DNA of 33,427 bases from Negativicutes bacterium (GTDB taxonomy: Bacteria > Bacillota > Negativicutes > Anaeromusales > Anaeromusaceae): positions 1 to 33,427 of the forward strand of contig SAAJ01000033.1 in NCBI GenBank assembly GCA_009929485.1, given 5' to 3'. The notes under the pieces are model-generated. The model was given only the letters and a program-made list of their open reading frames with translations. It did not search any database and was not told where the DNA came from. This document shows positions 1 to 33,235 of the stretch, piece after piece. Every line of letters begins with the position of its first letter. The first letter of the stretch is position 1. Position numbers and translations under genes: made by a program.

Positions 1-41
1 CGCCAGCGTTCGTCCTGAGCCAGGATCAAACTCTCCGATAA
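1..41 (-). rRNA. 16S rRNA, 5' end only (partial)
   Basis: The reverse complement reads GAGAGTTTGATCCTGGCTC followed by AGGACGAACGCTGGCG, the near-universal start of bacterial 16S rRNA (the 27F primer site). Only about the first 40 nucleotides are in the window; the gene continues beyond position 1. The mature 5' end is placed near 41 by alignment with the E. coli 16S start, so it may be off by a few bases. Confidence 0.96.
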
Positions 42-147
42 AATCGAAGAACTGATGTCAGCTCTTAGTTTAAAAAAGAAATTTTTAATGACTTCCTTCA
101 CCTTGCGGCAAAGGTTGCCTCGCACATCTGGCTTGTTTGCATCGTTC

Positions 148-162
148 AGTTTTCAAGGAGCA
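148..162 (-). promoter_or_regulatory. boxA-like antitermination element in the rRNA leader
   Basis: On the minus strand this reads TGCTCCTTGAAAACT. It matches the TGCTCTTTGAAAACT-type sequence found in Bacillota pre-16S leaders, where boxA recruits NusB/NusE for rRNA antitermination. It sits about 105 nt upstream of the 16S 5' end and downstream of the promoter, as expected. The surrounding stretch 42-196 is untranslated leader and contains no gene. Confidence 0.7.
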
Positions 163-196
163 CTTGTTCTTTGCCGCCGCTCGCGACGACTTCTGT

Positions 197-388: not shown

Positions 389-2434
389 ATGAGAAATGAA
401 AGTACTTCACCACAAACACCCAAACGATCTTTTCGCTGGGGGCGCCTGTTTCTCATTATTTCAATAGTAATGGGCGTCATTTTTGCCGGCGTCGGCTTGG
501 GTTTTGTAACTGCCAGCTATAATACGATGCCTAACTTGCAAAACGACATTCGCCCGGCTGCTTCATCACAAATTTTTGACAGCCATGGCACGCTAATTAC
601 TACCGTACATTCCGTGGAAAATCGCGTTCCAGTTCCTCTGAGCAAAGTCCCGCAAAATCTGCAGAATGCTTTTGTGGCGGTTGAGGATGCTCGCTTTTAT
701 CAGCACATGGGCGTTGACCCGCGAGGCATTTTGCGGGCGGCTTGGTCTAATGTAACCGGAGGCGGCGTAGCCGAAGGCGGCAGCACCATCACCCAGCAGC
801 TTGCTAAAAACGCGCTTCTTTCACAAGAACGCACGATGAAGCGAAAAATCCAAGAGGCTTTTTTGGCCTTGCAAATCGAACGCCAGTATACCAAACATGA
901 GATTTTAGAAATGTACGTTAATCACATTTACTTTGGCCAAGGCGCTTATGGCGTGCAAACGGCCGCCAAAGTATACTTCAATAAAAATGCCGAAGATTTA
1001 TCGTTGGCGGAATGCGCTATGCTGGCCGGCATTCCCAAAAGCCCCAATTACTATTCCCCTTTGAATAATTTAAAAGCCGCTAAAGAACGACAGCGGACGG
1101 TTTTAGAGCAAATGGTCAAGTACGGCTATATTGATGCCGCTACCGCTCACAGTGCTGCAGAAGCGCCGTTAAAGCTGGCTTCCGGCCAAACCAACAATGA
1201 CAAGTCCAATAAAACAGCCGCTTATTTTATTGATTATGTTGTCCAATCGCTGATTGATAAATATGGCGCCGATGCCGTTTATAAAGAAGGCTTGAAGGTC
1301 TACACCTCCTTAGATTTGACCATGCAGCATGCGGCGGAAAGCGCCCTTACCCATCTGCCATCGTATCGCAAAGATGCAAATGGCATCATGCAGCCGCAAG
1401 GAGCGCTGGTAGCCATTGATCCGCGCAGTGGTTACATTAAAGCCATGGTAGGCGGTCGCGGTGACGATCAATTCAATCGCGCCGTAATGGCGGAACGTCA
1501 GCCTGGCTCTGTTTTTAAAACCTTCACCTACCTAGCCGCCATTGAAAGCGGCATGACGCCAGCTACAAGCATCAGCGATACAGCCGTGTCTTTTGGCTCC
1601 TGGGCTCCCCGCAATTACGACGGACGCTTTTACGGCAACATTTCACTGCGCTACGCTTTAGAACAGTCGCGCAATGTACCTACCGTAAAGTTGGCCAACC
1701 AGCTTGGCGCTGATAAACCCTTGTATTACGCCCAGCAAATGGGCATCTCCACCCTAGTATTGCAAGGTCCTACAAATGATAGAAACCTGGCTATGTCCCT
1801 GGGCGGCTTAACCAAAGGCGTTACTCCTTTGGAAATGGCCAGCGCCTATGGAGTATTGGCCAACCAAGGTATCCGTTGCGAACCCATTGCCATCGTGAAA
1901 GTCGTCGATCGAAACGGCAAAACCTTGGAAGAACATTCTCCTCAGCCCAAAACCATCATCAGCGAGAAAAGCGCCTACATCATAACCGATATGCTTAAAG
2001 GCGTTATTGCCCGCGGCACCGGAGCAGGCGCCGCTATTGGCCGGCCAGCAGCCGGCAAGACCGGCACTACAGACAATAACAAAGACGCCTGGTTTGTCGG
2101 TTATACTCCTGACTTGGTTGCCGCCGTTTGGATGGGTAATGACACCGAAGGAACTCTTGGAAATATCACAGGAGGTACCGTTCCCGCCGAAATTTGGCGC
2201 GGCTTCATGACCAAGGCGTTAGCCTCGACTCCAGCCCGTGATTTCTTACGTCCCCAGGGCGTGTCGGTTCCTCAAGACGCAAGCACGCCGGCCCACCCTG
2301 ACGACAAAGCAGCTGCTGATAAAAAGCAAGAAGACGATAAGAAAAAAACAACAACCAAGCAGCCGGAGAAAACAACAACGAAACCAACGGAAGCTAAAAC
2401 AGAAGACAAGAAAACAGATTCCAAAAAGGAATAA
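389..2434 (+). CDS. Class A penicillin-binding protein (PBP1A-type glycosyltransferase/transpeptidase)
   Basis: A bifunctional peptidoglycan synthase that polymerises lipid II and cross-links stem peptides on the outer face of the membrane. It has a short basic cytoplasmic tail, one membrane anchor (about residues 19-43), and a GT51 domain with the catalytic Glu99 in VEDARF, GGSTITQQ at 130-137 and the EMYVNHIYFG helix at 174-183. The transpeptidase domain carries the SxxK motif with Ser374 (SVFK), SRN at 427-429 and KTGT at 557-560. All catalytic motifs are intact. The last 45 residues form a Lys/Asp/Thr-rich low-complexity tail common in this family. AGGAGG at 371-376 lies 12 nt before the ATG. 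The gene is monocistronic, ending at a strong terminator. Its length of 681 aa is normal. Confidence 0.95.
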   Translation: MRNESTSPQTPKRSFRWGRLFLIISIVMGVIFAGVGLGFVTASYNTMPNLQNDIRPAASSQIFDSHGTLITTVHSVENRVPVPLSKVPQNLQNAFVAVEDARFYQHMGVDPRGILRAAWSNVTGGGVAEGGSTITQQLAKNALLSQERTMKRKIQEAFLALQIERQYTKHEILEMYVNHIYFGQGAYGVQTAAKVYFNKNAEDLSLAECAMLAGIPKSPNYYSPLNNLKAAKERQRTVLEQMVKYGYIDAATAHSAAEAPLKLASGQTNNDKSNKTAAYFIDYVVQSLIDKYGADAVYKEGLKVYTSLDLTMQHAAESALTHLPSYRKDANGIMQPQGALVAIDPRSGYIKAMVGGRGDDQFNRAVMAERQPGSVFKTFTYLAAIESGMTPATSISDTAVSFGSWAPRNYDGRFYGNISLRYALEQSRNVPTVKLANQLGADKPLYYAQQMGISTLVLQGPTNDRNLAMSLGGLTKGVTPLEMASAYGVLANQGIRCEPIAIVKVVDRNGKTLEEHSPQPKTIISEKSAYIITDMLKGVIARGTGAGAAIGRPAAGKTGTTDNNKDAWFVGYTPDLVAAVWMGNDTEGTLGNITGGTVPAEIWRGFMTKALASTPARDFLRPQGVSVPQDASTPAHPDDKAAADKKQEDDKKKTTTKQPEKTTTKPTEAKTEDKKTDSKKE

Positions 2435-2440
2435 TAAAGT

Positions 2441-2486
2441 AAAAGAAGAGCAGTACTGTTTTTGCCGACAGTGCTGCTCTTCTTTT
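2441..2486 (+). terminator. Rho-independent terminator after the PBP gene
   Basis: A 16-bp stem (2444-2459 with 2468-2483) with an 8-nt loop is followed by TTTT. The A-rich left flank means it may also act on the minus strand, but mutS2 ends about 115 bp away. The right edge is followed 12 nt later by a dispersed repeat. Confidence 0.85.
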
Positions 2487-2497
2487 CTAGTTTTTAA

Positions 2498-2549
2498 TAT
2501 ACCAGAATTTATAAAACGAACCGCGAAATACACGAAAAACGCGAAAGGG
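2498..2549 (+). repeat. Dispersed 9-nt-period repeat, copy 1
   Basis: A head ATACCAGAATTT, then TAAAACGAAC, then three 9-nt units CGCGAAATA, CACGAAAAA and CGCGAAAGG. The same head and units recur on the minus strand at 16588-16656. This copy lies just behind the terminator of the PBP gene, in the direction of its transcription, between it and the convergent mutS2. No gene is supported in the 2487-2600 gap. Confidence 0.75.
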
Positions 2550-2600
2550 CATTGAAAATCGTCCACCGCAACCCTCTTACGTACCCTCGTGCAATTTTTC

Positions 2601-4973
2601 TTATTTAAGCTGCACCAGCGTAGCGCCGTCGCCGCCTTCGGTTACCTCGCCAATGCTGATGTCCCTAACACCGTGATGCTGCTTTAAATAAGCCCGCACG
2701 CCTTTACGCAACGCGCCGGTTCCCTTGCCGTGAATCACATTTATCTTAGTGTGCCCGGCCAGCATGGCGTCATCCAAGAATTTAGCCAGTATTTCTACGG
2801 CTTCTTCAATGTTTTGACCGCGCACATCAATTTCCCGGGGAACATCCAAGCGTTTGCTCAAAAACGCGGCGGAAATTCGCGGCGCCGCCTTGACCGGAGG
2901 CTCCTCCACCTTCCCATCCTCCACGAGAAGACAGGCTTGCAAGGGCACATTCATTTTTAGCGCTCCGATCTGCACCGTCGCCTCCTTAGTATTCCAGGAG
3001 AGAATTCTGCCTTTCTGGCCCAGCGTCTTAACCATAACTGCCAAACCTTCCCGCAGCAGTTCCTGTTCTACTGGGCTTCCGGCGACAATCTTGCGGAATT
3101 GAGGGCGTGTTCCATCCAGCGCTCCCTGCAGTCTTTCTCTCGCCTGTTGAAACGCGTTCTGCCGCCGCTGCTGATCTTGCTCTTGCGCCTGTTTTTTAAT
3201 GAGATTGACGCTTTCTTCGGCTGTTTTTCTAGCCTGCCGCAGTAATTCAGCCGCCTTCGTCTTGCTTTGCTCCAATCGCAAGGCGGCTTTTTCTTCCTCT
3301 TGACTTCGCTTGGCTTCCCAGCGTCGCTGCTCTTGCTCCCACGAGCGCTGCTGAAGTTCCAGAGTTGCAAGACGTTCTTGATACTCTAACTGTTCTTTTT
3401 CCAGCTCCTGCATCATCGCGGCCAAATCCACATGCTGCTGATCCATTAGTACGCGCGCCCTGTCTAATATCGCTTCCGCCAGACCTAAGCGGCGGCTGAT
3501 GGCGAAAGCGTTACTGGAACCGGCCATGCCGATGCGCAGCCGATAGGTCGGACGCAGGGTTTGCACATCAAACTCCACACTGGCATTTTCTACGCCTTCA
3601 CGGGCATAGGCAAATTGCTTTAACTCGCTATAATGCGTTGTTGCCACAGTCAAAGCGCCGCAAGCCTGCAAATTTTCCAAAATGGACATAGCTAAAGCGG
3701 CGCCCTCTACCGGATCGGTGCCAGCGCCGATTTCATCCAGCAAAACCAAATCATCAGCGCCGACTTCTTGCAGAATGCTCACCAAATGCGTCATATGAGA
3801 TGAAAAAGTACTCAAGCTTTGTTCAATACTTTGTTCATCGCCAATATCCGCAAATACCTGACTGAACATGCAGATGCTCGAACCGCTGTCTACCGGCAAA
3901 AACAAGCCAGCCTGCGCCATAAGCACCATGAGTCCCAGCGTCTTTAGCGCTACCGTTTTACCGCCTGTATTAGGACCGGTTATCAGCAGCATCGTATACT
4001 CTTCACCAAGAAACAAGTCAATCGGCACAACTTGGGCGGCGTTAATTAAAGGATGCCGGGCCTGACGCAAAGAAAGCCGCTTCGCTTCATTAAAAACAGG
4101 CTTAGTGCATTTCCATTGCTCCGCCAGCCGAACCTTAGCCGCCAATAAATCCATCTGTCCTAATAAGCGGCAATTTTCTTGAATACTGTCATTATCGCGT
4201 CCCGTAACCGCACTTAAAGACTGTAAAATGCGTTCTATTTCATTGCGTTCAGCGGCAACGCATTGCTTAATTTCGTTGTTCAGCTCTACAATGCTCATCG
4301 GCTCAATGAAGACAGTAGCGCCGCTGGCCGATTGATCATGAACAATGCCTGGGAAAAAATGCTTATACTCCTGCTTCACAGGAATTACATAGCGATCACC
4401 CCGCATGGTTACCAAAGCTTCTTGAAAATATTTCTGATATTCTTGAGAACGCAATACAGACTGCAAGCGTTCTTTAACTCGTCCATGAGCCGTGCGAATG
4501 GCGCGCCGCAGTTTGGCCAGCTCCGGCGTAGCGTCGTCGCGCATTTGACCATGCTCGTCAATAACCGCTTCCACCGCCTGTTCTAAACGCTGCAACGAAA
4601 CAAAACCTTCTGCATACTCGCTTAAAATTGGCGTTTCTTCCAAGCGGTTTAGCAAAAAGCTTCCCAAAATCCGGGCGCTTTTCATTGTAGCGGCGATATT
4701 GCGCAGCTCTTCTAGTTCTAAAATCGCTCCTAACGCCGCTCTGCCTGCTGCTTGGCGCACATCATGAATGCCGCCCAAGGGCAGCCGTTCTCCCTGCTCC
4801 GCCAAAAAAGCCACTGCTGCAGTTTCTTCCAACGATCGAGCAACGAACTCCGCTTCTACCTGGGGCTGCAGCTTTTCCGCCAGCTCTCGCCCCAGCGAGC
4901 ACGCAGTCAAGGAGGCTAGGCGGCTTCGAACCTTGTCAAATTCCAATATATGCAATGCTTTTTCATTGATCAT
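2601..4973 (-). CDS. mutS2: MutS2 endonuclease/ATPase (Smr-domain MutS paralogue)
   Basis: MutS2 proteins bind branched DNA or collided ribosomes. They do not act in mismatch repair; reported roles are suppression of recombination and ribosome rescue. Visible parts: MutS-like core and clamp (about 1-320), Walker A GPNTGGKT at 333-340, Walker B LLDEIGAGTDP near 411-421, a long Glu/Gln-rich coiled coil (about 515-615), and a C-terminal Smr domain (about 713-790) with IDVRG and HGKGTGALR. At 790 aa it is the normal length, with no mismatch-recognition N-terminal domain. Its ATG overlaps the end of the upstream U32 gene by 11 bp, so the two are probably translationally coupled. Confidence 0.96.
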   Translation of the reverse strand: MINEKALHILEFDKVRSRLASLTACSLGRELAEKLQPQVEAEFVARSLEETAAVAFLAEQGERLPLGGIHDVRQAAGRAALGAILELEELRNIAATMKSARILGSFLLNRLEETPILSEYAEGFVSLQRLEQAVEAVIDEHGQMRDDATPELAKLRRAIRTAHGRVKERLQSVLRSQEYQKYFQEALVTMRGDRYVIPVKQEYKHFFPGIVHDQSASGATVFIEPMSIVELNNEIKQCVAAERNEIERILQSLSAVTGRDNDSIQENCRLLGQMDLLAAKVRLAEQWKCTKPVFNEAKRLSLRQARHPLINAAQVVPIDLFLGEEYTMLLITGPNTGGKTVALKTLGLMVLMAQAGLFLPVDSGSSICMFSQVFADIGDEQSIEQSLSTFSSHMTHLVSILQEVGADDLVLLDEIGAGTDPVEGAALAMSILENLQACGALTVATTHYSELKQFAYAREGVENASVEFDVQTLRPTYRLRIGMAGSSNAFAISRRLGLAEAILDRARVLMDQQHVDLAAMMQELEKEQLEYQERLATLELQQRSWEQEQRRWEAKRSQEEEKAALRLEQSKTKAAELLRQARKTAEESVNLIKKQAQEQDQQRRQNAFQQARERLQGALDGTRPQFRKIVAGSPVEQELLREGLAVMVKTLGQKGRILSWNTKEATVQIGALKMNVPLQACLLVEDGKVEEPPVKAAPRISAAFLSKRLDVPREIDVRGQNIEEAVEILAKFLDDAMLAGHTKINVIHGKGTGALRKGVRAYLKQHHGVRDISIGEVTEGGDGATLVQLK

Positions 4974-7449: not shown

Positions 7450-7636
7450 ATATTTTCATTCCCTTCCCTTTCAACAAATCCATTTTGAACTTTATTGCAA
7501 CAATCGCTATCATTTTATCTTACCACAAACATAAAACCTTTTTCACTGCTATCTTTTGCCAGCCTTGAGGGAAAATCAGAGAAGCCTGCTATCCCTGCGC
7601 AATAAAGTCTTGTATAACAGCAAAATCATCTCGTTA

Positions 7637-7691
7637 AATAACCTTCATAAAGTGGCTTTCCTCTATCATTCGCGCTATGATAAAGGTTATT
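7637..7691 (+). promoter_or_regulatory. Inverted repeat in the 5' leader of the DUF441 gene
   Basis: A perfect 9-bp inverted repeat, AATAACCTT (7637-7645) and AAGGTTATT (7683-7691), with CATA/TATG partially extending the stem. It ends 11 nt before the AAGGAGG ribosome-binding site at 7703-7709. It could be an RNA hairpin affecting translation or an operator. No promoter in the 7450-7717 gap is convincing enough to call. Confidence 0.35.
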
Positions 7692-7717
7692 ATTGAAACT
7701 CCAAGGAGGACGTTTTT

Positions 7718-8176
7718 ATGTTGGAATCCAGTATACCTCTGCTTGTTATCCTTTTCTTAGCTCTCTTCGGCAGTAATTACAGTGTCTTTATCGCTGCTTT
7801 GATTTTACTGTTAATCAAGTGGCTTGGCTTTGAAGCCTGGCTGGCTCCGGTGGAAACGCACGGCATCTCTGTGGGTATTACTATTTTGACCATGGCCATC
7901 CTGGTTCCCATCGCTCAAGGTAAGCTGACTACGCAAATGCTTTTGGACGCCTTTAAATCGCCAGTAGGCCTTGTGGCTATCGCCGTAGGCATCTGGGTGT
8001 CCTACCTGGCGGCGCAAGGGGTTCCCTTTATGCGGGAAACGCCGGAAGCAGTCAGCGCCCTGATCGTCGGCACCATTGCCGGCGTCTGTCTCTTCCACGG
8101 TCTAGCAGTAGGCCCCTTGATTGCCGGCGGTTTAGTCTCTCTGGTGATCAGTCTGGCAGGATTCTTCAAGGCATAA
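7718..8176 (+). CDS. DUF441 (UPF0756) integral membrane protein
   Basis: A 152-aa, very hydrophobic protein with about four membrane segments (around 5-35, 47-65, 80-98 and 110-150), starting MLESSIPLLVILFLALFGSN. The family is widespread in Bacillota and gammaproteobacteria (YeaL-like) and has no established function. The conserved Gly-rich segment near the C-terminus (AGVCLFHGLAVGPLIAGG) is present. AAGGAGG lies 8 nt before the ATG. The gene is alone on the plus strand between two minus-strand units and ends at a bidirectional hairpin, so it is a single-gene transcript. Confidence 0.88.
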   Translation: MLESSIPLLVILFLALFGSNYSVFIAALILLLIKWLGFEAWLAPVETHGISVGITILTMAILVPIAQGKLTTQMLLDAFKSPVGLVAIAVGIWVSYLAAQGVPFMRETPEAVSALIVGTIAGVCLFHGLAVGPLIAGGLVSLVISLAGFFKA

Positions 8177-8198
8177 AATCAGAAGGATAATTTCACAG

Positions 8199-8242
8199 AG
8201 AAGCACTGGGTTCTGCGCAAATGCGCAAAACCCAGTGCTTCT
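8199..8242. terminator. Bidirectional rho-independent terminator
   Basis: A 14-bp perfect stem (8199-8212 with 8229-8242) encloses a second palindrome, TGCGCA/TGCGCA. It lies between the convergent DUF441 gene and zapA, so it can stop transcription from both sides. The U-tract is short on each side. Confidence 0.75.
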
Positions 8243-8249
8243 TGTCATT

Positions 8250-11039: not shown

Positions 11040-11059
11040 GAGAATCCTCCTTTGTACAA

Positions 11060-16587: not shown

Positions 16588-16656
16588 CCCTTTTGCGTAT
16601 TTTGCGTATTTCGCGTATTTCGCGTATTTCGCGGTTCGTTTTACAAATTCTGGTAT
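16588..16656 (-). repeat. Dispersed 9-nt-period repeat, copy 2
   Basis: On the minus strand the head ATACCAGAATTT is followed by TAAAACGAAC and five 9-nt units: CGCGAAATA three times, CGCAAAATA, CGCAAAAGG. The head and spacer match copy 1 (2498-2549) almost base for base. This copy begins 2 nt behind the T-tract of the rplT terminator, in the direction of transcription. Its translation gives Lys-Tyr-Ala type repeats that are not a gene. Confidence 0.8.
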
Positions 16657-16658
16657 AG

Positions 16659-16688
16659 AAAAAAAGCCGACCCTAAGGCCGGCTTTTC
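16659..16688 (-). terminator. Rho-independent terminator of the infC-rpmI-rplT operon
   Basis: On the minus strand AAAAGCCGGCC pairs with GGGTCGGCTTTT (one G.U pair) around a TTA loop, followed by a run of T. It lies 12 nt after the rplT stop. Confidence 0.9.
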
Positions 16689-23003: not shown

Positions 23004-26000
23004 TTATCCCTGCACCAATTCCCACAACCGCTCATAGCTGTCAACCACGTCGTATCTTACTTTCTCGCCGCTGATGGCGCGGAAATGTTCACGGGCGCAG
23101 TGAGCTTTCGCTTTTTCAATTTCACGCAGTTCAAGTGAGGACATATCCCCCTTCGTTTCCGCGACAAAGTAAATATGCTTCACCTTTCCTTCATGGAACG
23201 CAATCGCCCAGTCAGGATTATATTTGCCGACAGGCGTACTGATATAAAAGCCCTTCGGCAACTTGACGTAGACTTCAACCTCTTGACTATGCGCTTCCAG
23301 TTGGGCAGCAAAGTCGCGCTCGTTTGTTGAGTCATAGATAACATAGTCGTACAAATGCCGCTTCGCTTCCATAGCATTTACACCCAAGGCTCCTTTTTTG
23401 AGACCAGGTGCGGTGAATATATCTGTGCTGAACGCGGATGTCAGCTTGTCGTACGTAATACGCTCGATAATCGCCGTAGCTTTCTGCTCGTTGATGATGT
23501 TCGCAGCGCGGATGATAAACTCTTCCGGGTTATCAGGGAACTGGTTGAACACGCCTTTCTCAAGGCCGACCAGTATGGCGGCTACGGCCTTTCGGGTCAA
23601 CCCCGTTTCGGCAACAATTTTACCCACAAGGTCATAGCGCACCGAATTACTCGCTTTCATTGCCGTGTATGACGCCGCTTCTTCGCGCGTCATATCGGCA
23701 CGCGCAAACGATTCACCCGCCTGCACTTGCGCTTTAGACTCGATTGTCGCTACCTGTTCTCCTTTTTCAACCTTAACGTAAATCCGCGAGACGCGCAGCC
23801 GTTCATTCAGTGCTGCGACAGATTTTTTGACCAATTCAGCCTCATCGAAGGCAACCGTATAGTAACTTCTGCCGTTAATACGCGACCAAAGCTCCTGGAA
23901 TGCGCGACTATTCATCTTATCTTTATCCAGCGTGACATCAATCGTGTTTTTCCGGGCATTCTCCGGTTTGTTGGCATTCGGATCATAGACGGAATCCAGC
24001 ACGGCAATCACTTCTGCAGCGCGATCGGCAGCTTCCTCCGGCATCTCAAGCATGCCGTTCTTTTTTGCTTCGTAGTATTTCTCGGTCAGCTCGCCGCGTT
24101 TTACATAGCCGTTTTCAATCAGGCTCTCATAAATGGCAAGTGCCGTATCTTCACCAAATTTCTCGTCAAACAGTTTCGCCTCAACCTTGCGCGGACGATC
24201 GGCGACCGCCTCTGCCAGCTCACTCTGCAGACCCTTGGCAAAACTGTCGTAACTTTCGTTGGCAATCACGGTCAATACATTCACATTGTGTATTTCATCA
24301 CGGGAAAGGACATTCTCATCCATACGCTCGCCGCCCTGATTGACCGCAAGACGCAAGCCGCGACCGACTTCTTGGCGTTTGCGAACATCGCTGCCGCTTT
24401 GCTTCAAGGTGCAGATCTGAAACACATTCGGATTGTCCCAGCCTTCACGAAGCGCGGAGTGACTAAATAGGAACCGTACAGGCTCGCGGCGATCCAAGAG
24501 ACGTTCCTTGTCCTTCATAATAAGATCGTAGGCATCCACATCATCGGATGTACGTTCTTTTTTGTCGCCAAGTTTACTGTCGATCATGCGACCGCTCTTT
24601 TTATCAACGGAGAAGTATCCGGCATGTGTACGCTCAACCGGTATGCCCTCAAGGTATTTCAGATAGTCTGCGGAATCTTCCAGCGAAAGCTGCATACTGC
24701 CGATAACCGCGTTGTATTCTTCCTCGAAAATTTGCGCATATGTACCGCCGGTGGCGTTGCCATGCGCATCGTACTGCTTGTACTTCGCCACTTCGTCGAT
24801 GAAGAACAAGGACAGCACTTTAATCCCCTTGGTAAACAATTGACGTTCCCGCTCGATGTGCGAGAGAACGGTTTCCCGTATCTGAATGCGGCGCAGCTGC
24901 TCCTCGCTGACCGAGCCGATCACATCCCCGGCAAACAACTTCTTGCCGTTCGTAAATTCCACCGATGAATCCCGACCATCAATCCGATGAACCGTATAGC
25001 CATCCTTGTACTCCGCAAGCTCACCGGAGTTAGCGAACAGGCTGTAACCCTCGCCGACAATCCTTGCTACCTTGCGAATACCTGCGTTGCCCTTTACATC
25101 AAATTCAATCGTTGCCGTAGGATTCCCTTTGGACAGGTTGATGCTTTGTACATAGACATACCCTTCGGTGGCGGTGCTGCCGGAAACCGATATGCCCTTA
25201 ACGGCGATTTTCTTCACGAGTCGTTTATTGTAGGCTTCAAGCGCATCAAGACGGTAAATCATATTATACACACTGTCCGCACGATGGGTTGCGGAATAAC
25301 GGAGCGTCACCAGCGGGGTGAACTCTTTCAGACGCTCTTTCGTAGCTGCCCCCTCAACCGACTGCGGTTCATCGATGATCAGAATCGGATTGGTCTTCGC
25401 CAAGATATCAATCGGACGCCGTGAACGAAACTCATCCAACTTCATATAGATACGCCGGGCATTTTTCCCTCTGGCGTTGAATGCCTGGCTGTTGATGATC
25501 ATCACATTGATCGCGCTATCGGAAGCAAAGCGATCAATCTCCGTCAGTTGCGCCGAATTATAAATGAAGTAGCGGATTTTCTTGCCGTAGTCCTCGGCAA
25601 AATGTTCTTCCGTCATTTGAAATGACTTATACACGCCCTCGCGAATGGCCACGCTCGGGACGACAATAATAAATTTGCTCCACCCGTACCGCTTATTGAG
25701 CTCATACATCGTCTTGATGTAGGTATAGGTCTTACCCACGCCGGTCTCCATCTCTACGGTCAGGTTATAGCGTCCATCCAGCGCATCGGACGGCTTGATC
25801 TGTCCCGCCCGCTGAATGGCGCGGATATGCTCCAGAACCTTGTCATCGCCAATCGCCACAGGCGCATTATTAAAGCCCGTGAATTGCCGGGCATCGTAAA
25901 GATCGATTTGTCCCAAACCGGGGTCGATCCGATAGGTCGGCGCTTGAAACGGCTGACCTGCAAATACGTCGCAGACGGCGGTCGCCGCGTCAGCCTGGAA

Positions 26001-26027
26001 CTTTTGATGCCGGAATTGTAGCTTCAT
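23004..26027 (-). CDS. res: Type III restriction enzyme, Res (helicase/endonuclease) subunit
   Basis: Res is the ATP-dependent motor and nuclease of type III restriction, working in a complex with Mod. The SF2 helicase core has Walker A METGVGKT at 93-100, the Walker B variant DEPQ at 219-222, SAT at 245-247, and the motif VI RQEVGRGLRL in the second RecA domain. A C-terminal PD-(D/E)XK nuclease is present: Pro938-Asp939 (PDWAIAF) and Glu957-Thr-Lys959. All key residues are intact in 1007 aa, the usual length. Its ATG overlaps the Fic stop (ATGA) and GGAGG is 9 nt upstream. It is the last large gene of the operon; no terminator follows before the toxin remnant. Confidence 0.96.
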   Translation of the reverse strand: MKLQFRHQKFQADAATAVCDVFAGQPFQAPTYRIDPGLGQIDLYDARQFTGFNNAPVAIGDDKVLEHIRAIQRAGQIKPSDALDGRYNLTVEMETGVGKTYTYIKTMYELNKRYGWSKFIIVVPSVAIREGVYKSFQMTEEHFAEDYGKKIRYFIYNSAQLTEIDRFASDSAINVMIINSQAFNARGKNARRIYMKLDEFRSRRPIDILAKTNPILIIDEPQSVEGAATKERLKEFTPLVTLRYSATHRADSVYNMIYRLDALEAYNKRLVKKIAVKGISVSGSTATEGYVYVQSINLSKGNPTATIEFDVKGNAGIRKVARIVGEGYSLFANSGELAEYKDGYTVHRIDGRDSSVEFTNGKKLFAGDVIGSVSEEQLRRIQIRETVLSHIERERQLFTKGIKVLSLFFIDEVAKYKQYDAHGNATGGTYAQIFEEEYNAVIGSMQLSLEDSADYLKYLEGIPVERTHAGYFSVDKKSGRMIDSKLGDKKERTSDDVDAYDLIMKDKERLLDRREPVRFLFSHSALREGWDNPNVFQICTLKQSGSDVRKRQEVGRGLRLAVNQGGERMDENVLSRDEIHNVNVLTVIANESYDSFAKGLQSELAEAVADRPRKVEAKLFDEKFGEDTALAIYESLIENGYVKRGELTEKYYEAKKNGMLEMPEEAADRAAEVIAVLDSVYDPNANKPENARKNTIDVTLDKDKMNSRAFQELWSRINGRSYYTVAFDEAELVKKSVAALNERLRVSRIYVKVEKGEQVATIESKAQVQAGESFARADMTREEAASYTAMKASNSVRYDLVGKIVAETGLTRKAVAAILVGLEKGVFNQFPDNPEEFIIRAANIINEQKATAIIERITYDKLTSAFSTDIFTAPGLKKGALGVNAMEAKRHLYDYVIYDSTNERDFAAQLEAHSQEVEVYVKLPKGFYISTPVGKYNPDWAIAFHEGKVKHIYFVAETKGDMSSLELREIEKAKAHCAREHFRAISGEKVRYDVVDSYERLWELVQG

Positions 26028-26923
26028 TCGCCGTCACCTCCTGTAATTTCATCTACTTGCTCATAATAGTAAGAGTAATCTATGCCCTTCATGAACATTT
26101 CACGGTCATTGATACGATCCGTCAACGCCGACTGCAACAATGCTTTGATCGGAGCAACGTCGGTCACACTCTTTTCCATCGCGGCAAGATACTCTTTTTT
26201 ATTGATTTTACTCCAGTCCACGCACAGTTTCAGATTCTTCTTCAGAATCAGATCCAGCCAAATCCGCGTGCTTCTGCCGTTGCCCTCCATAAAAGGATGA
26301 GCAACATTCATCTCCGCATATTTATCGACAATGGCCTCAAGCGTACTTTCAGGCATTTCTTCAATCTGTTTCAGCGTTTCGGGCAAGTAGCGCGCCATCG
26401 CAAACTGAAAGCCGCTCTTTGCGATATTAAGCGTTCTGATTTGCCCGGCAAAGTCATACAGCCCGCCGAATAAATAGCCGTGAATCTGCTGCAAACCCTT
26501 GACTGTACCGACTTCGATTGTAGCAAGCAACGAACTGTCAAACAGGGCATACGCTTTGGATTTGCTCTTGCCGTCAATGGTTTCATCGCTGTAAGTAAAC
26601 CATTCGATAAAGCGATTCGCCTGTTTGCTGGGAAAGTTTTTCGCGAGCTCAATAATACCGTCGTAATCAAATGTATCGGTCAGATACTTTTTCCCGTCAG
26701 CCGCCGTCAATTTCAGTTGGTTAGCGTCACTAACCAACTTGCTGTTTTCTTTTTTCAGTTTTGTTTTTAAGAATTTCCAATAGTTCCTGTTTTTCTTGTA
26801 ATCGTCCTCGCCACGCAACACGCCGATAATATCCAGTACGGAAAACCACCACTTGGCTTTTTCATCATCCCAAACGGCACGAACTTCTTTATCATCAAAA
26901 AAACGAATGGAGACTTTATTCAT
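26024..26923 (-). CDS. BRO-N domain/Fic domain fusion protein
   Basis: Fic enzymes transfer AMP (or other nucleotides) to hydroxyl side chains of target proteins. The C-terminal half shows the catalytic motif HPFMEGNGRSTR at 209-220 (His209) and the upstream YLFGGLYDFAGQIRTLNIAK block. The N-terminal part (about 5-115: KWWFSVLDIIGVLRG, NRNYWKFLKTKLKKE, LKLTAADGKKYLTD) is a BRO-N domain as in phage antirepressors. I find no (S/T)xxxE(G/N) inhibitory helix, so control may come from the BRO-N domain or a partner. It is sandwiched between mod (stop directly abutting its ATG) and res (ATGA overlap), so it is translated as part of the restriction operon. Confidence 0.92.
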   Translation of the reverse strand: MNKVSIRFFDDKEVRAVWDDEKAKWWFSVLDIIGVLRGEDDYKKNRNYWKFLKTKLKKENSKLVSDANQLKLTAADGKKYLTDTFDYDGIIELAKNFPSKQANRFIEWFTYSDETIDGKSKSKAYALFDSSLLATIEVGTVKGLQQIHGYLFGGLYDFAGQIRTLNIAKSGFQFAMARYLPETLKQIEEMPESTLEAIVDKYAEMNVAHPFMEGNGRSTRIWLDLILKKNLKLCVDWSKINKKEYLAAMEKSVTDVAPIKALLQSALTDRINDREMFMKGIDYSYYYEQVDEITGGDGE

Positions 26924-28783
26924 CTAGATCACCCGTACATTCGTGTTGGGCGCGAGAAGTTTGAAGATCTCGAACACATTTATTTTCTCCGGTGAGCTCG
27001 CAAACGATGAATCGCGGAACACGGCGCGCAGCGGCTTACGGCTCGCGATCTCACGAATTGCTTTTTCGCTGATCTTCTCCGCAAAACAGGCGATCAGGTC
27101 ACCATCATTGTAGGTATGAACAGTGAAGCCGTCGATCTGCTCGTGCGTGTGCGGCATAGACAGCGGTAGTCCCCAGTCAATCAAGCAACCAAACAGTAAA
27201 TCCATATCCGTGCGATCGGGCTTAATGTTGCCTTCCATTAAACTAAGCATATCTTGCGTGTAGTCGCCTGCTGCGTAGTAGACGTCGTTCATGTTCGTGT
27301 CGGCGAGCTTTAAGACACGGAAGCCGATGTCGAGATCTTGCGCAGTCAAGCCAGCCTCGGTTTTGATCTTATCCCCTGCGCGGCGAATGCGCTCTTTGCC
27401 GATTTCACAGATGGTCGAGTAGCCTGCTTTAGCGGCTTCTGTTCCTTCGGCGCACACCTCCGGTAATTGCACCATGATGAATTTCCGTTTGCCACCACCC
27501 TCAGCATTAAGTTTCATAACGGCGTGAGCAGTGGCAGCGGAGCCTGAGAAGAAATCAAGAATAATATCATTTTCTTGAACGCCACTAATTTCAAGTAACT
27601 TTTCAATGAATCGAATTGGTTTAGGGAAAGGAAAAGTTTTCGCATCACCAAAAATATCTTTTATCTCTTTTGTCCCCTCTTGTGTAAAAACATCATCAAT
27701 TAGGGACTGTGCTTTTGTTTTTCTTCGGACTCCATCCTCATCATTTATATATTGCTTAGAAGAAAGAACCCATTCATCATCTTTGTTTTTGGAAAATATT
27801 ACCTCGTTTTTGGCCAAAGCCTCTTCAAAGCGTTCTTTACTCCAACGCCATTGTCTTTTGGGATATACCATTGTGCCATCCGGCGCTTCAACGCCAAATT
27901 GAAGATTCTCTCTTATATCAAAGCTTTGCACAGCTTCTAAAGGATGTGTTCTATAACATCCTCTTACTTCATAATTTTCATCTTTGAACTTATAGAATCT
28001 ATCCGATTTTTCCTCGGCAAAATCAACTAATATTTCTGGCAAATCACTTTTGCTTTTACAATAAAAAAGTGTATACTCGTGAACGGATACTAAATATTTT
28101 TCTTTAGCGCCACCACCATACTTTTTCTTCCAACATATAACATCAACAAAATTATCTTCCCCAAATACCTCATCGCAAATCTTCCTCAACTGCGCGACCT
28201 CATTATCATCTATACTGATAAAAATTACACCGTCATCGCGGAGCAGATTTCGTGCCAGCACAAGGCGCGGGTAAATCATGCTGCACCAGTCCGAGTGAAA
28301 GCGACCGTTTTTTTCGGTATTTTTGAACAAGAGGTCACCCTCTTCATCGTAAACGCCCGCTTCTTCCTCATAGTCATCACGACTGGCTGCGAAGTTGTCA
28401 CGATAAACAAAGTCATTACCTGTATTATAGGGCGGATCGATATAGATCATCTTCACTTTGCCAAGGTAGCTCTCCTGCAACAGTTTCAGCACATCAAGGT
28501 TGTCGCCTTCAATGTAAAGGTTCTCGGTCGTATCCCAGTCTTTACTTTCATCCGGCGCAGGCCGGAGTGTTTTTCGAATAGGCCGCCCTGCCTCGGCAAT
28601 GGCATCACGTTTGCCTACCCAGGTAAATTCGTAGGCTTCGTCAGCAAACACGTCCTCGCCCAGCATAGCACGAAGCAGGTCTATATTCACTTTACCTTCT
28701 GTAACCACGCCTGGAAAGAGCTCAGCAATCTTCGCCACGTTTTCGGCGGTGATATTCGGGGTCTCAAATTTCATTTTATCCAT
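26924..28783 (-). CDS. mod: Type III DNA methyltransferase, Mod subunit
   Basis: Mod provides sequence recognition and adenine methylation for a type III restriction system. Motif IV DPPYNTG is at 116-122, ahead of motif I DFFSGSAATAHAV (about residue 405-418): beta-class order. Motif I has Ala where FxGxG methylases usually have the last Gly. The target-recognition part lies between them. The N-terminus (NITAENVAKIAELFPGVVTEG) is typical for Mod proteins. At 619 aa it is full length. GGAGGA precedes the ATG. The central third is visibly AT-richer than both ends. Mod is followed without any gap by the Fic gene. Confidence 0.95.
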   Translation of the reverse strand: MDKMKFETPNITAENVAKIAELFPGVVTEGKVNIDLLRAMLGEDVFADEAYEFTWVGKRDAIAEAGRPIRKTLRPAPDESKDWDTTENLYIEGDNLDVLKLLQESYLGKVKMIYIDPPYNTGNDFVYRDNFAASRDDYEEEAGVYDEEGDLLFKNTEKNGRFHSDWCSMIYPRLVLARNLLRDDGVIFISIDDNEVAQLRKICDEVFGEDNFVDVICWKKKYGGGAKEKYLVSVHEYTLFYCKSKSDLPEILVDFAEEKSDRFYKFKDENYEVRGCYRTHPLEAVQSFDIRENLQFGVEAPDGTMVYPKRQWRWSKERFEEALAKNEVIFSKNKDDEWVLSSKQYINDEDGVRRKTKAQSLIDDVFTQEGTKEIKDIFGDAKTFPFPKPIRFIEKLLEISGVQENDIILDFFSGSAATAHAVMKLNAEGGGKRKFIMVQLPEVCAEGTEAAKAGYSTICEIGKERIRRAGDKIKTEAGLTAQDLDIGFRVLKLADTNMNDVYYAAGDYTQDMLSLMEGNIKPDRTDMDLLFGCLIDWGLPLSMPHTHEQIDGFTVHTYNDGDLIACFAEKISEKAIREIASRKPLRAVFRDSSFASSPEKINVFEIFKLLAPNTNVRVI

Positions 28784-28809
28784 AATCAGCGTTCCTCCAA
28801 TGTATTATT

Positions 28810-28880
28810 AACCGCTAAAAGCGCGAAAGACGCGAAAAATAATCTAGTGCGTTTTTGCGCTTTTAGCGATTTTCGCGGTT
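28810..28880. repeat. Inverted pair of 9-nt-period repeats between GxxExxY gene and mod
   Basis: AACCGC (28810-28815) and GCGGTT (28875-28880) bound an imperfect palindrome. The left arm on the plus strand has units CGCTAAAAG, CGCGAAAGA, CGCGAAAAA. The right arm on the minus strand has CGCGAAAAT, CGCTAAAAG, CGCAAAAAC. The arms differ by one extra 9-nt unit (GAAAATCGC). The right arm contains the last codons and TAA stop of the GxxExxY gene. As RNA it could form a large hairpin between the two genes. Confidence 0.75.
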
Positions 28881-29312
28881 CGAGCATAAAGGATTTACTA
28901 ACCGTGAAAATTGGTTTGCTATTCTAGCTATCTGTGCTTTTGGATATGCGCCGAAGTTTACAAGCAACCCCAATTCAAGATTTGATGCTTTCAAATAGTT
29001 AAGCAGCTGAGCCTGATGTTCTGATGTGATGTCTTTTACCGCTTTTAGCTCGACAATGATTTTATCGTAACATATCAAATCAGGAATATACGCTTGCTTT
29101 AATGCCTCACCCTTGTATGCTAATGGTAATGCTACCTGCCGACAAAAAGGAACGCCCCGACGTTTTAGTTCGAGCTCCAAACATTCCTGATACACCGCTT
29201 CAAGAAAACCACATCCCATTTCTCTATACACTTCAAAAACAGCACCTTGAATCAAATAACACTCTTCTTTATATAAGATGCTTTCGCGTTTTTCGCGACT
29301 TTCGCGGTTCAT
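28863..29312 (-). CDS. GxxExxY family protein (PD-(D/E)XK-like)
   Basis: A 149-aa protein with the eponymous motif GCGFLEAVY and the nuclease-like signature PDLICYDKIIVELKAV (Asp...Glu-x-Lys). The family is related to Vsr/PD-(D/E)XK nuclease folds and has no settled function. The first 11 residues (MNRESREKRES) and the last few (NRENR) are encoded by the dispersed 9-nt repeat, so the native protein probably starts near ILYKEECYLIQ. The ATG overlaps the DUF4391 stop (ATGA). It probably entered the operon as a cassette together with the repeats. Confidence 0.88.
   Translation of the reverse strand: MNRESREKRESILYKEECYLIQGAVFEVYREMGCGFLEAVYQECLELELKRRGVPFCRQVALPLAYKGEALKQAYIPDLICYDKIIVELKAVKDITSEHQAQLLNYLKASNLELGLLVNFGAYPKAQIARIANQFSRLVNPLCSNRENR
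29282..29309 (-). repeat. Dispersed 9-nt-period repeat at the 5' end of the GxxExxY gene
   Basis: On the minus strand: CGCGAAAGT, CGCGAAAAA, CGCGAAAGC directly after ATGAAC. It has the same spacing and core as copies 1 and 2 but without the ATACCAGAATTT head. It is translated as Arg-Glu-x repeats. Confidence 0.75.
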
Positions 29313-29920
29313 ACCACCCCCTCCAATGCCGATCTTAACCGTTTCAATTCACCGTTTAATTCCACTTGGCGGTTGAACTGTTTCTCGCACAGGATTTTCT
29401 TTTCCATTGTCGCAATATCACGTTCGAGTTTCTGCCGCTGCTTATCGAGCTCTACCGCTTCGGCAATATCTCGTGCAACATCAAGTCGCCCAGCCGCTAT
29501 CTGTCGCACCAAATTATCGTACATAGCGTCCAGATTCAGCCCTTCGAAATTCAGCGTGAGCTCTGTTTGTGAAAACCAATCCGTGTTATAAAACGTGCCA
29601 GAAGCTTCCATCCACGCCTGCACCTCACCAGCGAAAGATAGCACAAACACCAGTTTATACGGTATCGCTTTGGCAATGGCAGGCAAGACACGTTTGTCCA
29701 GCTCGCGCTGCCTTAATACTATTTCGAATACCTGAATCTCTTTCACCGTTTCGCCAGCGGCAACGCTCATCGTGCTGTCGGCCAGTTTATTTCTCCAGAT
29801 GACAGATTCTATCTGGTCTTTGATTCTGTCGCGCACTTGCGTAGTCATCGCCGCATTAGCGTAGAGCTTTTCCTTCGCCACACGACGGTTTACTTCCGTC
29901 GAGCTCGGTAATCCTAACAT
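29309..29920 (-). CDS. DUF4391 domain protein
   Basis: A 203-aa protein starting MLGLPSSTEVNRRVAKEKLY, with IESVIWRNKLADSTMSVAAG, an internal alpha/beta core (KLVFVLSFAGEVQAW), and a C-terminal coiled coil (about 150-203, LDKQRQKLERDIATMEKK). It matches DUF4391, a family commonly found between an SNF2-type helicase and a type III-like methyltransferase. Its activity is unknown; the coiled coil suggests it bridges complex subunits. GAGGTGACGCT precedes the ATG, 4 bp after the helicase stop, and the gene ends in an ATGA overlap with the GxxExxY gene. Confidence 0.88.
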   Translation of the reverse strand: MLGLPSSTEVNRRVAKEKLYANAAMTTQVRDRIKDQIESVIWRNKLADSTMSVAAGETVKEIQVFEIVLRQRELDKRVLPAIAKAIPYKLVFVLSFAGEVQAWMEASGTFYNTDWFSQTELTLNFEGLNLDAMYDNLVRQIAAGRLDVARDIAEAVELDKQRQKLERDIATMEKKILCEKQFNRQVELNGELKRLRSALEGVV

Positions 29921-29924
29921 AGCG

Positions 29925-32900
29925 TCACCTCACCACCAGGAAGCAGATCATCTCAAAGTCATCCAATCCGCTGATTTTCGTATGTAAAGCAGACGTGCCG
30001 CCAGGACTAAACAGGCTGTCGATGTCACTTTCCGCTTTCCGCTCAATGATGGAACTAATCGCATCCGTCAGCAGCCCGGACACGCTCCGCATATCCCGCC
30101 CGTCCTTCGTCTCGTTGTTAAAGATACGGCAAACCTCCATCACCGGCGTGCTCTTACCCTTGCACAGCGAGCGGGACTTATCGAGCAGCTCCTTGGGCGA
30201 AAGGTGGTCGCAGACAACTTCTCCGTCCATTCCCACATATACCATATAAAACGGGTGAAGCCGGTTTTGCTTATCGATGTTCACGCTGTCATTAAGATTC
30301 TTAAGAACGAACACCACGCCCGGCGGGCAATCCTCTGAAGCGGGAACTACCGCGTGAAGCCCGTAGGGAACCGTATCCATATCGCCGTTGCGCTTTACGT
30401 ATTCAAGCAGGTCGAGGCGGAACTCGTTCAGCCCCAAGTCCATAATGGAGATGCCGGTTTGCATATCTTCAATATCCACGACTTCTTCCTGAAGCCGTTT
30501 CAGTTGCGCCTTTCGATATTCAAGGTCGCCTTTTTCCTCGGCGTTGATCAGGTCGTCATCACCCGTAGCAGTCATCACAGAAATTCGCATTCTTGTTTCG
30601 ACACGCCCTTTAAGAGAAAGGTACTCATCTAAATCCAAGTCCGGCCAGAAATTCACAAGCTGAATCACTGCATTTCTACTACCGATACGGTCGATCCGTC
30701 CAAAGCGCTGGATAATCCGTACAGGATTCCAGTGGATATCATAGTTGACGCAATAATCACAGTCCTGCAGGTTCTGCCCTTCCGAAATACAGTCTGTGGC
30801 AATCAACACAGAGATGTCATCGCGGTTGTTCGGCATCAGCAGTTCCTTGTCTTTCGAAAGCGGCGAGAACAAGGTCAGCACTTCATTCATCGAAGCCCGT
30901 TGTCCCTTAACTGTCGTCTTACCGTCCACGCTTCCCGTGATCATCGCCGTATCAAGCCCAAACCGCGACTTCACAAACGTGCTCACGTTTGCGTAAAGAT
31001 ATTCTGCCGTATCGGAAAATGCCGAAAAGATGATGATTTTCCGGTTGCCCTCATTGATCGGACGGGTCAGCTTACTTTCAATAAGCTCAAACAAGGTCTG
31101 AAGTTTCGTGTCGTGTTTCGGCGTGATATCGTCAATCAATATTTTCAGCAGTCCCAGCGTTTCAGCATCCTCTGCGAGTCTGTCCCGCCACGTCTTGTAG
31201 TCCATATCGGCAAGATCAATTTTGATGCGATGTTCCGCGGCAAAGTAGTCCGTGTTGCGATCATCATCATCAAAATCTGTATCGTCGCCGACAAGCTCCC
31301 GCCCCTTTATCACTGCACCGCCGCCAGCAATAAATGCGTCAATCTCAGCAATGGTATCGTCAATCATTGTTTTGACCCGCCCGACAGTCAGCCGAAAGGA
31401 TTCCACAGAGCTTTCCAGGCGTTTCAAAAGGTTAATGCTCATCAAACGCCGTATGCCCTGCTCGCGCCCGGCGCGGTTAATATTGATCGACTGGTCCACA
31501 TACTTTGCAAGCTGGCTTGGGAAAATAAAGTCGGTCGGGATATAGACCGAGAGATTCAGCTTCATCAACTGCTCATAGATTTCACTGTAGTTAATCGCAT
31601 TCTCCAGATCGCTAAGGCGTGGACGCAAGGAGAGCGGCTTTAATCGTTCCGGAAAGGAACCAATCTCTCCCATGTTGTAATACTTCTCTATGTGCCTACG
31701 AGAGCGGGCAATGGTTACGCTGTCAAGCACTTCAAAGAAATCAAAATCCAGCGATTTCAACAGTGAGTCCGTCGTCCGTTCACCGTCGTCCTGCTTATTC
31801 CACTGATTGAATACTTTTTGGGCATTGCGAAAAATCTCGTCTATCGTGCGCTTCGTTTCCAGCTTGTCATGAAGCTGCTTCGGATTCCCCTCATAAGCGA
31901 GCTCAAGCTGATTGCGCAAATCGACAAAACGATTATTGACCGGAGTTGCCGAAAGCATCAAGACCTTCGTCTTCACGCCTGTGCGGATAACACGGTTCAT
32001 AAGACGCAGATAACGGTTTTCACGGCGGTCTTCGCCATATACTTCGCCGCCATTTCTGAAGTTATGTGACTCATCGATGACCACAAGATCATAATTTCCC
32101 CAATTAATTCTGTTCAAATCAAGTCCATTTGATTTACCACGTTCGCGCGAGAGATCGGTGTGATAAAGCACATCATAGCGTAGGCGATCCGACGCAATGG
32201 GATTATTGATGTAGTTATCCTTGTAAGTCGTCCAGTTATCCGACAGCTTTTTGGGGCAAAGAACAAGGACCGAGCGATTACGGTTCTCATAATATTTGAT
32301 GACCGCCAGGGCAGTGAATGTTTTACCAAGGCCGACGCTGTCTGCGAGAATGCACCCGTTGAAAGATTCCAGTTTGTTGATAATCGCCAGAACCGCATCC
32401 TTTTGGAAAGTATAGAGCTTGCTCCAAATCTTGCTTTCCTTGAAGCCAGTCGCTTCGTTTGGCAGTACATCTTCGGAAATATCTTCTAAGAACTCGTTGA
32501 AAATGTTAAATATCGCCACAAAATAGATGAATTCCGGCGCGTTTTCATTGTAAGCGGCAGTGATGCCATCGATGACCTGCTCAGTTACGTCCTGCATCAG
32601 GCTGTTGTCATTCCAAATCTGACCAAACATACGAATGTACTCATCTGAAAGCGGCGCAAACATCTTATTTACCGGATTGATGATGTTGTTACCGCGCTCA
32701 CATCCGATGTCAGCAGTGGTAAAGCCGTGAAGCGGCATATAGGTCGCCGCCTCTTCGCCGACGACATTCATAAAGCCGCTGATATTGCCTCCCGTCAGAT
32801 TGGAGCGGAACTTCACTTTCTTGCGTATCCATTCGGCACACTCGCGGGCAATCGCTTTCTGGGTCAATTCATTGCGAAGTTTCACTTCGAACTCCGTACC

Positions 32901-33158
32901 ATAGAGCGATCGTTCGCGATTGAGTCGTGGTATGTAAAACTCTCGCTTTTCTTTCGGCGCTTTTTCCTGCAAAAATGTCGGCGAGGTGAAAATGAAGCGG
33001 AGCTCATCAATGCCGTCAAGTTGCTTTTTGAGCGCTTGATACGCATAAATCGAGAAACACGCTGCCGCCACAGACAGCTTGTCCCCCTTCTTAATTGTGA
33101 CCGTCAAATCATCCTTGACGGTTTTTCTTACGTTGTCAAACATTTCCGGCATTTGCAT
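29925..33158 (-). CDS. SNF2-family helicase with PLD-like N-terminal domain
   Basis: A large DNA translocase of about 1077 aa, first gene of the operon. Numbering is from the in-frame ATG at 33173. The N-terminal region (20-190) resembles the PLD-like domain of such helicases (KLSVAAACFSIYAYQALK, LRNELTQKAIARECAEWIRKK, HGFTTADIG), but no HxK(x4)D catalytic motif is visible. The SF2 core has Walker A DSVGLGKT at 278-285, DESH at 367-370, SAT at 408-410, and SEGQNLQDCDYCVNYD plus QRFGRIDRIGS near 800-832. I prefer the start at 33158 because GAGGA lies 8 nt ahead; the ATGs at 33173 and 33167 lack a site. With Mod, Res and DUF4391 it probably forms a DNA-defence complex. Confidence 0.92.
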   Translation of the reverse strand: MQMPEMFDNVRKTVKDDLTVTIKKGDKLSVAAACFSIYAYQALKKQLDGIDELRFIFTSPTFLQEKAPKEKREFYIPRLNRERSLYGTEFEVKLRNELTQKAIARECAEWIRKKVKFRSNLTGGNISGFMNVVGEEAATYMPLHGFTTADIGCERGNNIINPVNKMFAPLSDEYIRMFGQIWNDNSLMQDVTEQVIDGITAAYNENAPEFIYFVAIFNIFNEFLEDISEDVLPNEATGFKESKIWSKLYTFQKDAVLAIINKLESFNGCILADSVGLGKTFTALAVIKYYENRNRSVLVLCPKKLSDNWTTYKDNYINNPIASDRLRYDVLYHTDLSRERGKSNGLDLNRINWGNYDLVVIDESHNFRNGGEVYGEDRRENRYLRLMNRVIRTGVKTKVLMLSATPVNNRFVDLRNQLELAYEGNPKQLHDKLETKRTIDEIFRNAQKVFNQWNKQDDGERTTDSLLKSLDFDFFEVLDSVTIARSRRHIEKYYNMGEIGSFPERLKPLSLRPRLSDLENAINYSEIYEQLMKLNLSVYIPTDFIFPSQLAKYVDQSININRAGREQGIRRLMSINLLKRLESSVESFRLTVGRVKTMIDDTIAEIDAFIAGGGAVIKGRELVGDDTDFDDDDRNTDYFAAEHRIKIDLADMDYKTWRDRLAEDAETLGLLKILIDDITPKHDTKLQTLFELIESKLTRPINEGNRKIIIFSAFSDTAEYLYANVSTFVKSRFGLDTAMITGSVDGKTTVKGQRASMNEVLTLFSPLSKDKELLMPNNRDDISVLIATDCISEGQNLQDCDYCVNYDIHWNPVRIIQRFGRIDRIGSRNAVIQLVNFWPDLDLDEYLSLKGRVETRMRISVMTATGDDDLINAEEKGDLEYRKAQLKRLQEEVVDIEDMQTGISIMDLGLNEFRLDLLEYVKRNGDMDTVPYGLHAVVPASEDCPPGVVFVLKNLNDSVNIDKQNRLHPFYMVYVGMDGEVVCDHLSPKELLDKSRSLCKGKSTPVMEVCRIFNNETKDGRDMRSVSGLLTDAISSIIERKAESDIDSLFSPGGTSALHTKISGLDDFEMICFLVVR

Positions 33159-33235
33159 AGACTTCATCCTCATTTACATTTGCTCTTCTTTATCATAGTT
33201 ATCTTTTTCACGAAAAAGGCATATTTTTTATTCAT

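Follow-up and report, generated by a model that had tools for sequence, protein, structure and literature searches.

A dispersed family of 9-nt-period repeats docked behind intrinsic terminators, with the GxxExxY protein as its candidate cognate enzyme

Introduction

What are the short repeated sequences that lie directly behind the terminators of two genes in this Negativicutes genome, and what brought them there? The window, by which we mean the whole stretch of DNA analysed here (33,427 nt; contig SAAJ01000033.1 of assembly GCA_009929485.1), holds two copies of a repeat with a 9-nt period. An initial annotation had read them as a small non-autonomous element, placed by preference behind rho-independent terminators and built of units that would keep an insertion within a gene in frame. 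The present analysis confirmed the observation as a whole and supported all three parts of that interpretation. Two points had been missed: a candidate cognate nuclease gene, spread across about 20 phyla, and the tie of terminator docking to a genus-specific head and not to the 9-nt array.

Results

Two copies and their dispersed relatives

The genome of the window is called G000 (3.2 Mb, 134 contigs), and G001 and G002 are sister species. The two copies and their surroundings comprise the following features.

389-2434: ORF of penicillin-binding protein type, upstream of copy 1
2441..2497, plus strand: docking site of copy 1, an intrinsic terminator with its T tract that belongs to the gene upstream (terminator scan)
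~2496-2595, plus strand: copy 1, an insertion of ~100 bp made of head, array and tail, absent at that terminator in G001 and G002
2498..2514, plus strand: head of copy 1, TATACCAGAATTTATAA
2519..2547, plus strand: 9-nt array of copy 1, three units
16588..16657, minus strand: copy 2, with the head at 16641-16657 and a five-unit array from 16636 down
16659..16686, minus strand: docking site of copy 2, an intrinsic terminator with its T tract that follows the ORF at 16700-17053 (minus strand)

Both copies lie directly 3' of terminators in the sense orientation. They have a common head and spacer, carry three and five units, respectively, and are 91% identical across 56 nt. The coordinates initially given for the pair, the shared head and spacer and the unit numbers all held, except that copy 1, first drawn at 2498-2549, had been made too short, the inserted segment being about 2496-2595. 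Copy 1 has one arm only, and the TTTTT on each side of it is either a possible duplication or merely T tract. Neither copy folded better than shuffled sequences.

The two copies belong to a large family. With up to two mismatches allowed, AACCGCGAAANNCRCGAAANNCGCGAAAG gave 65 matches in G000 and the head plus spacer 19, the reversed sequence giving 0 in both cases; these reversed-pattern controls rule out chance or low complexity as the source of the repeats. Strict copies number at least 65 in G000, 42 in G002 and 2 in G001 (one contig), 37 further genomes of the class have no copy, and the unit number differs among copies in 9-nt steps. When the head was searched for with or without an array, 25 matches were found at ≤3 mismatches (2 for the reversed head), 19 of them behind a scored terminator, and some of these heads are joined to bodies lacking an array. 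In a hairpin variant, a 30-nt spacer separates an inverted array from the direct one that follows. The order of modules is constant in this genus, namely terminator, head, array and then two optional modules, D and E; D was found downstream of 9 and E of 10 of the 25 heads, neither was ever found upstream, and the corresponding values at random positions were 0.25% and 1.25%.

Some further observations were made on these modules and on the window. The E module (TTGAACAAGAGAACCGGAGTCGCGAGAGGGTACGCAGGAG) is a second dispersed family, also with a period of about 9 nt (for example, at minus-strand offsets 17667 and 40995 of contig C90 and 4985 of C58); in 1.16 Mb of G000, its seed GAACAAGAG was counted 69 times and the reversed word 10 times. 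It is possibly tied to a second GxxExxY type (contig C95 and G001), for which only weak profile matches were obtained (E 0.001-0.03). In G002, an E-like module (24/31 matches) lies just past the 3' end of a group II intron (locus L378, contig C4, about 75 kb). The D module (GGCGGCATAACTGTATTTGAGACAAGATTTCCGCGCG...) shows long inverted complementarity behind many heads, as at C49 from 42513 onward and at C56 23.2-23.6 kb, and resembles another miniature element nested behind arrays; G001 has D too. The ends of the contig itself (window 1-167 and 33237-33427) are 97-99% identical to several contig ends of G002 and are probably the ends of insertion sequences. A ribosomal protein L20 leader (Rfam RF00558, 63 bits) lies at window 17865-17991 on the minus strand and was the only known RNA family matched in the window.

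Docking behind terminators

In 36 of 49 headed copies the head starts 3-14 nt past the start of a T tract and points along transcription, as compared with 1-4% of random positions. The first set was drawn from stretches of G000 totalling 1.16 Mb, with terminators strictly scored; there, 15 of 24 headed array copies are preceded by a T tract whose start lies 4-11 nt from the head, against a strict-terminator background of 1.2% at random positions and 3.8% at random intergenic ones. A further set gave 10 of 13 copies in G000 and 11 of 12 in G002 (random positions in the same loci, 1.8-1.9%), and for several of the remaining copies a hairpin missed by the strict rule is visible by eye. Terminator placement of the headed copies thus stands in two species, far above chance. 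Neither of the outcomes that would have refuted the initial claim of terminator-linked placement, random positions of the copies or a lack of further copies, came true. The docking goes with the head and not with the array, since arrays elsewhere are palindromic and no obvious terminator accompanies them.

Insertion since the separation of sister species

The flanking DNA of the sister genomes is mostly 83-93% identical. At the site of copy 1 both sisters pass from the terminator straight into the end of the next gene, and G000 is ~100 bp longer: G001 matches window positions 686-2495 and 2596-16575, G002 matches 1-2486 and 2595-15473, and almost nothing is held by the sisters between these segments. 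At the site of copy 2, the terminator is without an element in G001, and in G002 it is followed by a different hairpin variant. Another insertion, behind the T tract of TTTCTTTA (C90:7909), is present in G000 and G002 and absent from G001, and at C78:120503 a copy stands behind the terminator in G002, the site being empty in G000. Other sites compared between G000 and G002 are either shared or keep the head with another body. Insertion of copies is shown by these comparisons, and since the same terminators occur with and without elements in sister species, the family must have moved after the species split. The notion of a small non-autonomous element, with its empty sites in the sister species, therefore held. 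In addition, copies at different loci of G000 and G002 are up to 95% alike, above the identity of orthologous DNA, which suggests, by inference, a recent spread.

A GxxExxY gene between arrays

Two headless relatives, initially placed at 28810-28880 and 29282-29309, do exist; they are not free-standing but represent the array ends of a GxxExxY gene, which is situated in an operon of restriction-modification (R-M) type.

23004..33173, minus strand: operon of R-M type, in the order SNF2 - DUF4391 - (GxxExxY insert) - methyltransferase - Fic/BRO - Res
28784..28809, minus strand: leader with a Shine-Dalgarno-like GGAGG, extending to the methyltransferase start codon
28810..28838, plus strand: inverted array partner, forming a palindrome with 28853-28880 (DNA fold z = -3.1)
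28853..28880, minus strand: 3' array, at and past the end of the GxxExxY gene
28863..29312, minus strand: GxxExxY protein gene (TIGR04256 / PF13366 PDDEXK_3), the cognate nuclease candidate
29281..29309, minus strand: 5' array, equal to codons 2-11 of the GxxExxY gene

The dispersed copies are connected to this locus by their spacer: the leader at 28784..28809 is common to the spacer of the dispersed hairpin copies, and a profile of those copies matches window 28785-28841 (E 2e-7), that is, the surroundings of GxxExxY.

The assignment of the protein to its family is secure, with profile scores of 146.8 bits (curated cut-off 35) and 151.7 bits (cut-off 22). Among 97 relatives the PD-(D/E)XK residues E48, D78 and K90 are conserved in all and E88 in 96, as are Q102 (97/97) and Y106 (96/97) of a Q102xxxY106 motif. 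An AlphaFold model has a confident core, with low confidence at residues 1-9 and 136-149, which cover the array-encoded tails. A Foldseek search with this model placed 4ic1 first (SSO0001, which we take to be an archaeal Cas4; E 2e-4, Z 9.1), with lambda exonuclease lower; other rows below Z 8 were not relied on. GxxExxY is accordingly predicted by the model to be a minimal PD-(D/E)XK core of ~120 residues with a Cas4-like fold, and its nuclease activity is inferred.

On plasmids of Methylotuvimicrobium and E. coli the order SNF2 - DUF4391 - methyltransferase - helicase is found without GxxExxY. The evidence that the gene was inserted into the R-M operon is thus one of gene order, without a base-exact empty site. 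Also in this operon, a Fic/BRO-N gene lies at 26024-26923, between the methyltransferase and Res, and is missing from the plasmid operons of the same type. GxxExxY seems often to be located inside R-M operons; at loci L200, L207, L223 and L227, the gene after it starts with YKTIAESNxFIVL, which we take to be the start of HsdR.

Coupling of array type and GxxExxY across phyla

Eighty GxxExxY loci from named genomes of about 20 phyla of bacteria and archaea, chosen as the closest relatives of the window's protein, were compared. Self-similarity at a lag of 9 nt was present in 75% of their 5' and 74% of their 3' flanks, as compared with 1.7% of control windows from the same loci, and at other lags (6-8, 10-12, 15) in ≤4% of flanks. 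Direct arrays are mostly 5' and inverted arrays mostly 3' of the gene, and the array type is the same on both flanks in 55 of 57 loci (25 when shuffled). On the nuclease tree, the unit type changes 8 times, against a mean of 34 and a minimum of 27 in shuffled data; when it was shuffled only within phyla, there were 7 changes observed and 22 on average, with none of 500 shuffles as low. The AC/TC form of the head changes twice (15.5 when shuffled), and phylum changes 38 times on the same tree. The tree is short (117 columns) and leaves many forks unresolved. Unit type follows the nuclease tree and not the host phylum, and the coupling of nuclease and array type is thereby shown. Phaeodactylibacter xiamenensis carries two GxxExxY genes and two array types, and for both genes the array type agrees with the protein clade.

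In full forms the array units read C-R-C-R-R-A-R-N-N, the left arrays beginning with AACC or GTCC and the right ones ending with GGTT (or GGAC). The left array often encodes the first codons of GxxExxY (as in MNRESREKRES), and with this the early suggestion of in-frame 9-nt units held. In several genomes the arrays are palindromes with a fixed offset, such as 49 nt in the archaeal G077. At several loci (L200 and L223), the gene stands between direct repeats of a nearly identical array hairpin, which lie shortly ahead of the next start codon, and the neighbours of GxxExxY differ between genomes. As a separate observation, at loci L192-L271 the 5' arrays very often begin at the upstream stop codon (TAACC, TGAACC) or overlap it as ATGAACC, and an inserted nuclease gene could therefore be translationally coupled.

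Of the 31 genomes with such loci, 28 contain strict arrays, in numbers that range from a few, located at the gene, up to about 100; in the poorest of the 28, the arrays at the GxxExxY gene make up the whole count. Among 249 genomes of the phylum to which the window belongs, 6 have at least 5 strict arrays, 13 have GxxExxY and 4 have both, so that the gene is present in 4 of 6 array-rich genomes against 9 of 243 others (Fisher p = 6e-5). Other genera of the class showed no arrays of the CCRCRRAA pattern; by reading, most of the GxxExxY flanks in the class-level set obtained with the family model have arrays of other units (such as CACAGAGGN), and in some none were found. G002 (with its 42 copies), G144 and G216 have arrays without a detectable GxxExxY gene, and no GxxExxY was found in the phage records searched.

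Discussion

Likeness to known systems

The closest parallel is that of the REP/REPIN sequences and their TnpA-REP (RAYT) enzymes, the 'REPtron', in which short extragenic repeats are likewise dispersed, many of them as palindromes and in paired orientation, and one enzyme gene lies between repeats of its own type. The type of repeat is reported to co-vary with TnpA-REP (PMC8266576), and the same holds here on the GxxExxY tree. On the other hand, RAYT enzymes are HUH Y1 proteins, whereas the flanked gene here is of the PD-(D/E)XK type, and no head, array or spacer was found within ~1.5 kb of the two Y1 genes of G000. Nor is there, by reading only, a GTAG/CGTC-tagged palindrome at the ends of the copies read, in which the arrays start with AACC or GTCC and continue with 9-nt units. 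The present system further differs in its arrays of 9-nt units, in an array that encodes the first residues of the enzyme, and in terminator docking in this genus.

Other resemblances are more limited. Pneumococcal BOX elements (PMC3049150) are likewise small and modular, and contain an inner unit in variable number; their unit length and sequence differ from those of the arrays, and they are not known to have a cognate gene or to dock behind terminators. Group IIC introns insert at intrinsic terminators (PMC4424553), as these elements do, but the latter are of ~100 bp, without ribozyme domains or a reverse transcriptase (RT) gene, and no Rfam intron match was found in the window. A miniature derivative of IS200/IS605 would share its ends with a resident TnpA, which was not the case at either Y1 locus of G000 or at the full-length Y1 loci compared in the sister species (one in G001, one in G002; fragments were excluded). 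Classical MITEs are marked by terminal inverted repeats, a target-site duplication and a resident transposase; here, inverted arrays bound GxxExxY and the hairpin copies, while copy 1 has a single arm. Rpn/YhgA recombination-promoting nucleases likewise belong to the PD-(D/E)XK type and have a link to DNA mobility, but GxxExxY, flanked by its cognate arrays, forms a family of its own (TIGR04256). Cas4 and lambda exonuclease are the best structural matches of the GxxExxY model; unlike Cas4, GxxExxY has no CRISPR context here, and it has a minimal core with array-encoded tails that are predicted to be disordered.

A working model

On balance, we favour the view that the repeats are a mobile family of 9-nt period whose cognate enzyme is most likely the GxxExxY nuclease. 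The pairing is best read as REP/RAYT-like with a PD-(D/E)XK nuclease in place of the HUH enzyme, and the terminator-docked copies as non-autonomous relatives of the GxxExxY-bearing form. The full form would be a PD-(D/E)XK gene, similar to Cas4 and lambda exonuclease, between arrays, with array-only derivatives dispersed over the genome; those of this genus would carry the head TATACCAGAATTTATAA immediately behind the T tract of intrinsic terminators. The nuclease may recognize its own array type, probably in a folded or single-stranded state, and cut or process it, after which copies would be pasted or recombined elsewhere, the ends of terminators serving as putative landing sites in this genus. 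Recognition of the array, its cutting, the copying mechanism and the role of the nuclease in the spread are all inferred, as neither transposition nor cleavage has been observed.

Our confidence in this model is no more than moderate because arrays occur without the gene and the head occurs without an array. The arrays of G002, G144 and G216 indicate that copies can persist, or may spread, without GxxExxY. Because the head is also joined to array-less bodies, the docking module may be part of another element, and a second enzyme may do the docking; we regard the docking head in this genus as a separate module whose mobilizer is unidentified. A bolder reading, to which we would not yet give even odds, is that prokaryotes harbour a class of mobile DNA in its own right, made up of 9-nt-unit arrays that a Cas4-like GxxExxY recognizes as its own and spreads in about 20 phyla, archaea included, with lineage-specific landing rules such as insertion behind terminators.

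Alternative explanations

The most serious alternative, which remains possible, is that the docking element is composite and mobile by itself (head, body, D and E), moved by an unidentified enzyme, in which the array is just one acquired body and GxxExxY plays no part. It is favoured by the joining of the head to several bodies, some of them array-less, by the fixed order in which D and E follow the heads, never preceding them, by orthologous terminators that keep the head while the body differs, and by the many copies in G002 in the absence of GxxExxY. Against it, the spacer of the dispersed hairpin copies matches the surroundings of GxxExxY, and the Y1 transposase and RT genes of G000 have neither head nor array at their flanks. 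We consider it unlikely that the arrays are general cassette boundaries, like integron attC, with GxxExxY merely a frequent passenger. The near-identical direct-repeat hairpins around the gene, before the next start codon, and the variable neighbours would agree with this; however, array type tracks the nuclease phylogeny far above chance even within phyla, which a passenger would not do.

Two further proposals appear very unlikely. The tight distance and constant orientation relative to terminators might point to a regulatory or fail-safe transcription element under selection, yet the same terminators are otherwise intact without the element in sister species, the bodies vary freely, and copies 1 and 2 have no stable fold. 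Derivation from group IIC introns or IS200/IS605-type elements, which favour terminators or hairpins, draws support from the insertion of such introns at intrinsic terminators (PMC4424553) and from the one group II intron and two Y1-family proteins encoded by G000. The elements in the window had no Rfam intron match, however, and no head or array lies within ~1.5 kb of the RT or Y1 genes of G000. With the single group II RT gene and both Y1 genes lacking a flanking head, array or spacer, a group IIC intron or Y1 transposase was rejected as the source.

Significance

GxxExxY is a widespread family with no known role, mentioned only in passing in open papers. No paper linking it with repeats was found in the open-access literature searched, although a description elsewhere is not excluded. 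A dispersed repeat with a cognate enzyme is already known as a kind; what would be new is the PD-(D/E)XK partner. Through this link, the GxxExxY family gains a role that can be put to the test, and an intergenic repeat of a common type gains an owner. The three sister species, which differ in copy number (65, 42 and 2) and have empty sites that can be resolved behind terminators, represent a sharp natural experiment, in which target choice and the role of transcription termination can be studied directly. If the proposed pairing is true, repeat and enzyme would here be paired independently of the HUH (RAYT) type, which would raise the question of how such selfish repeats arise more than once.
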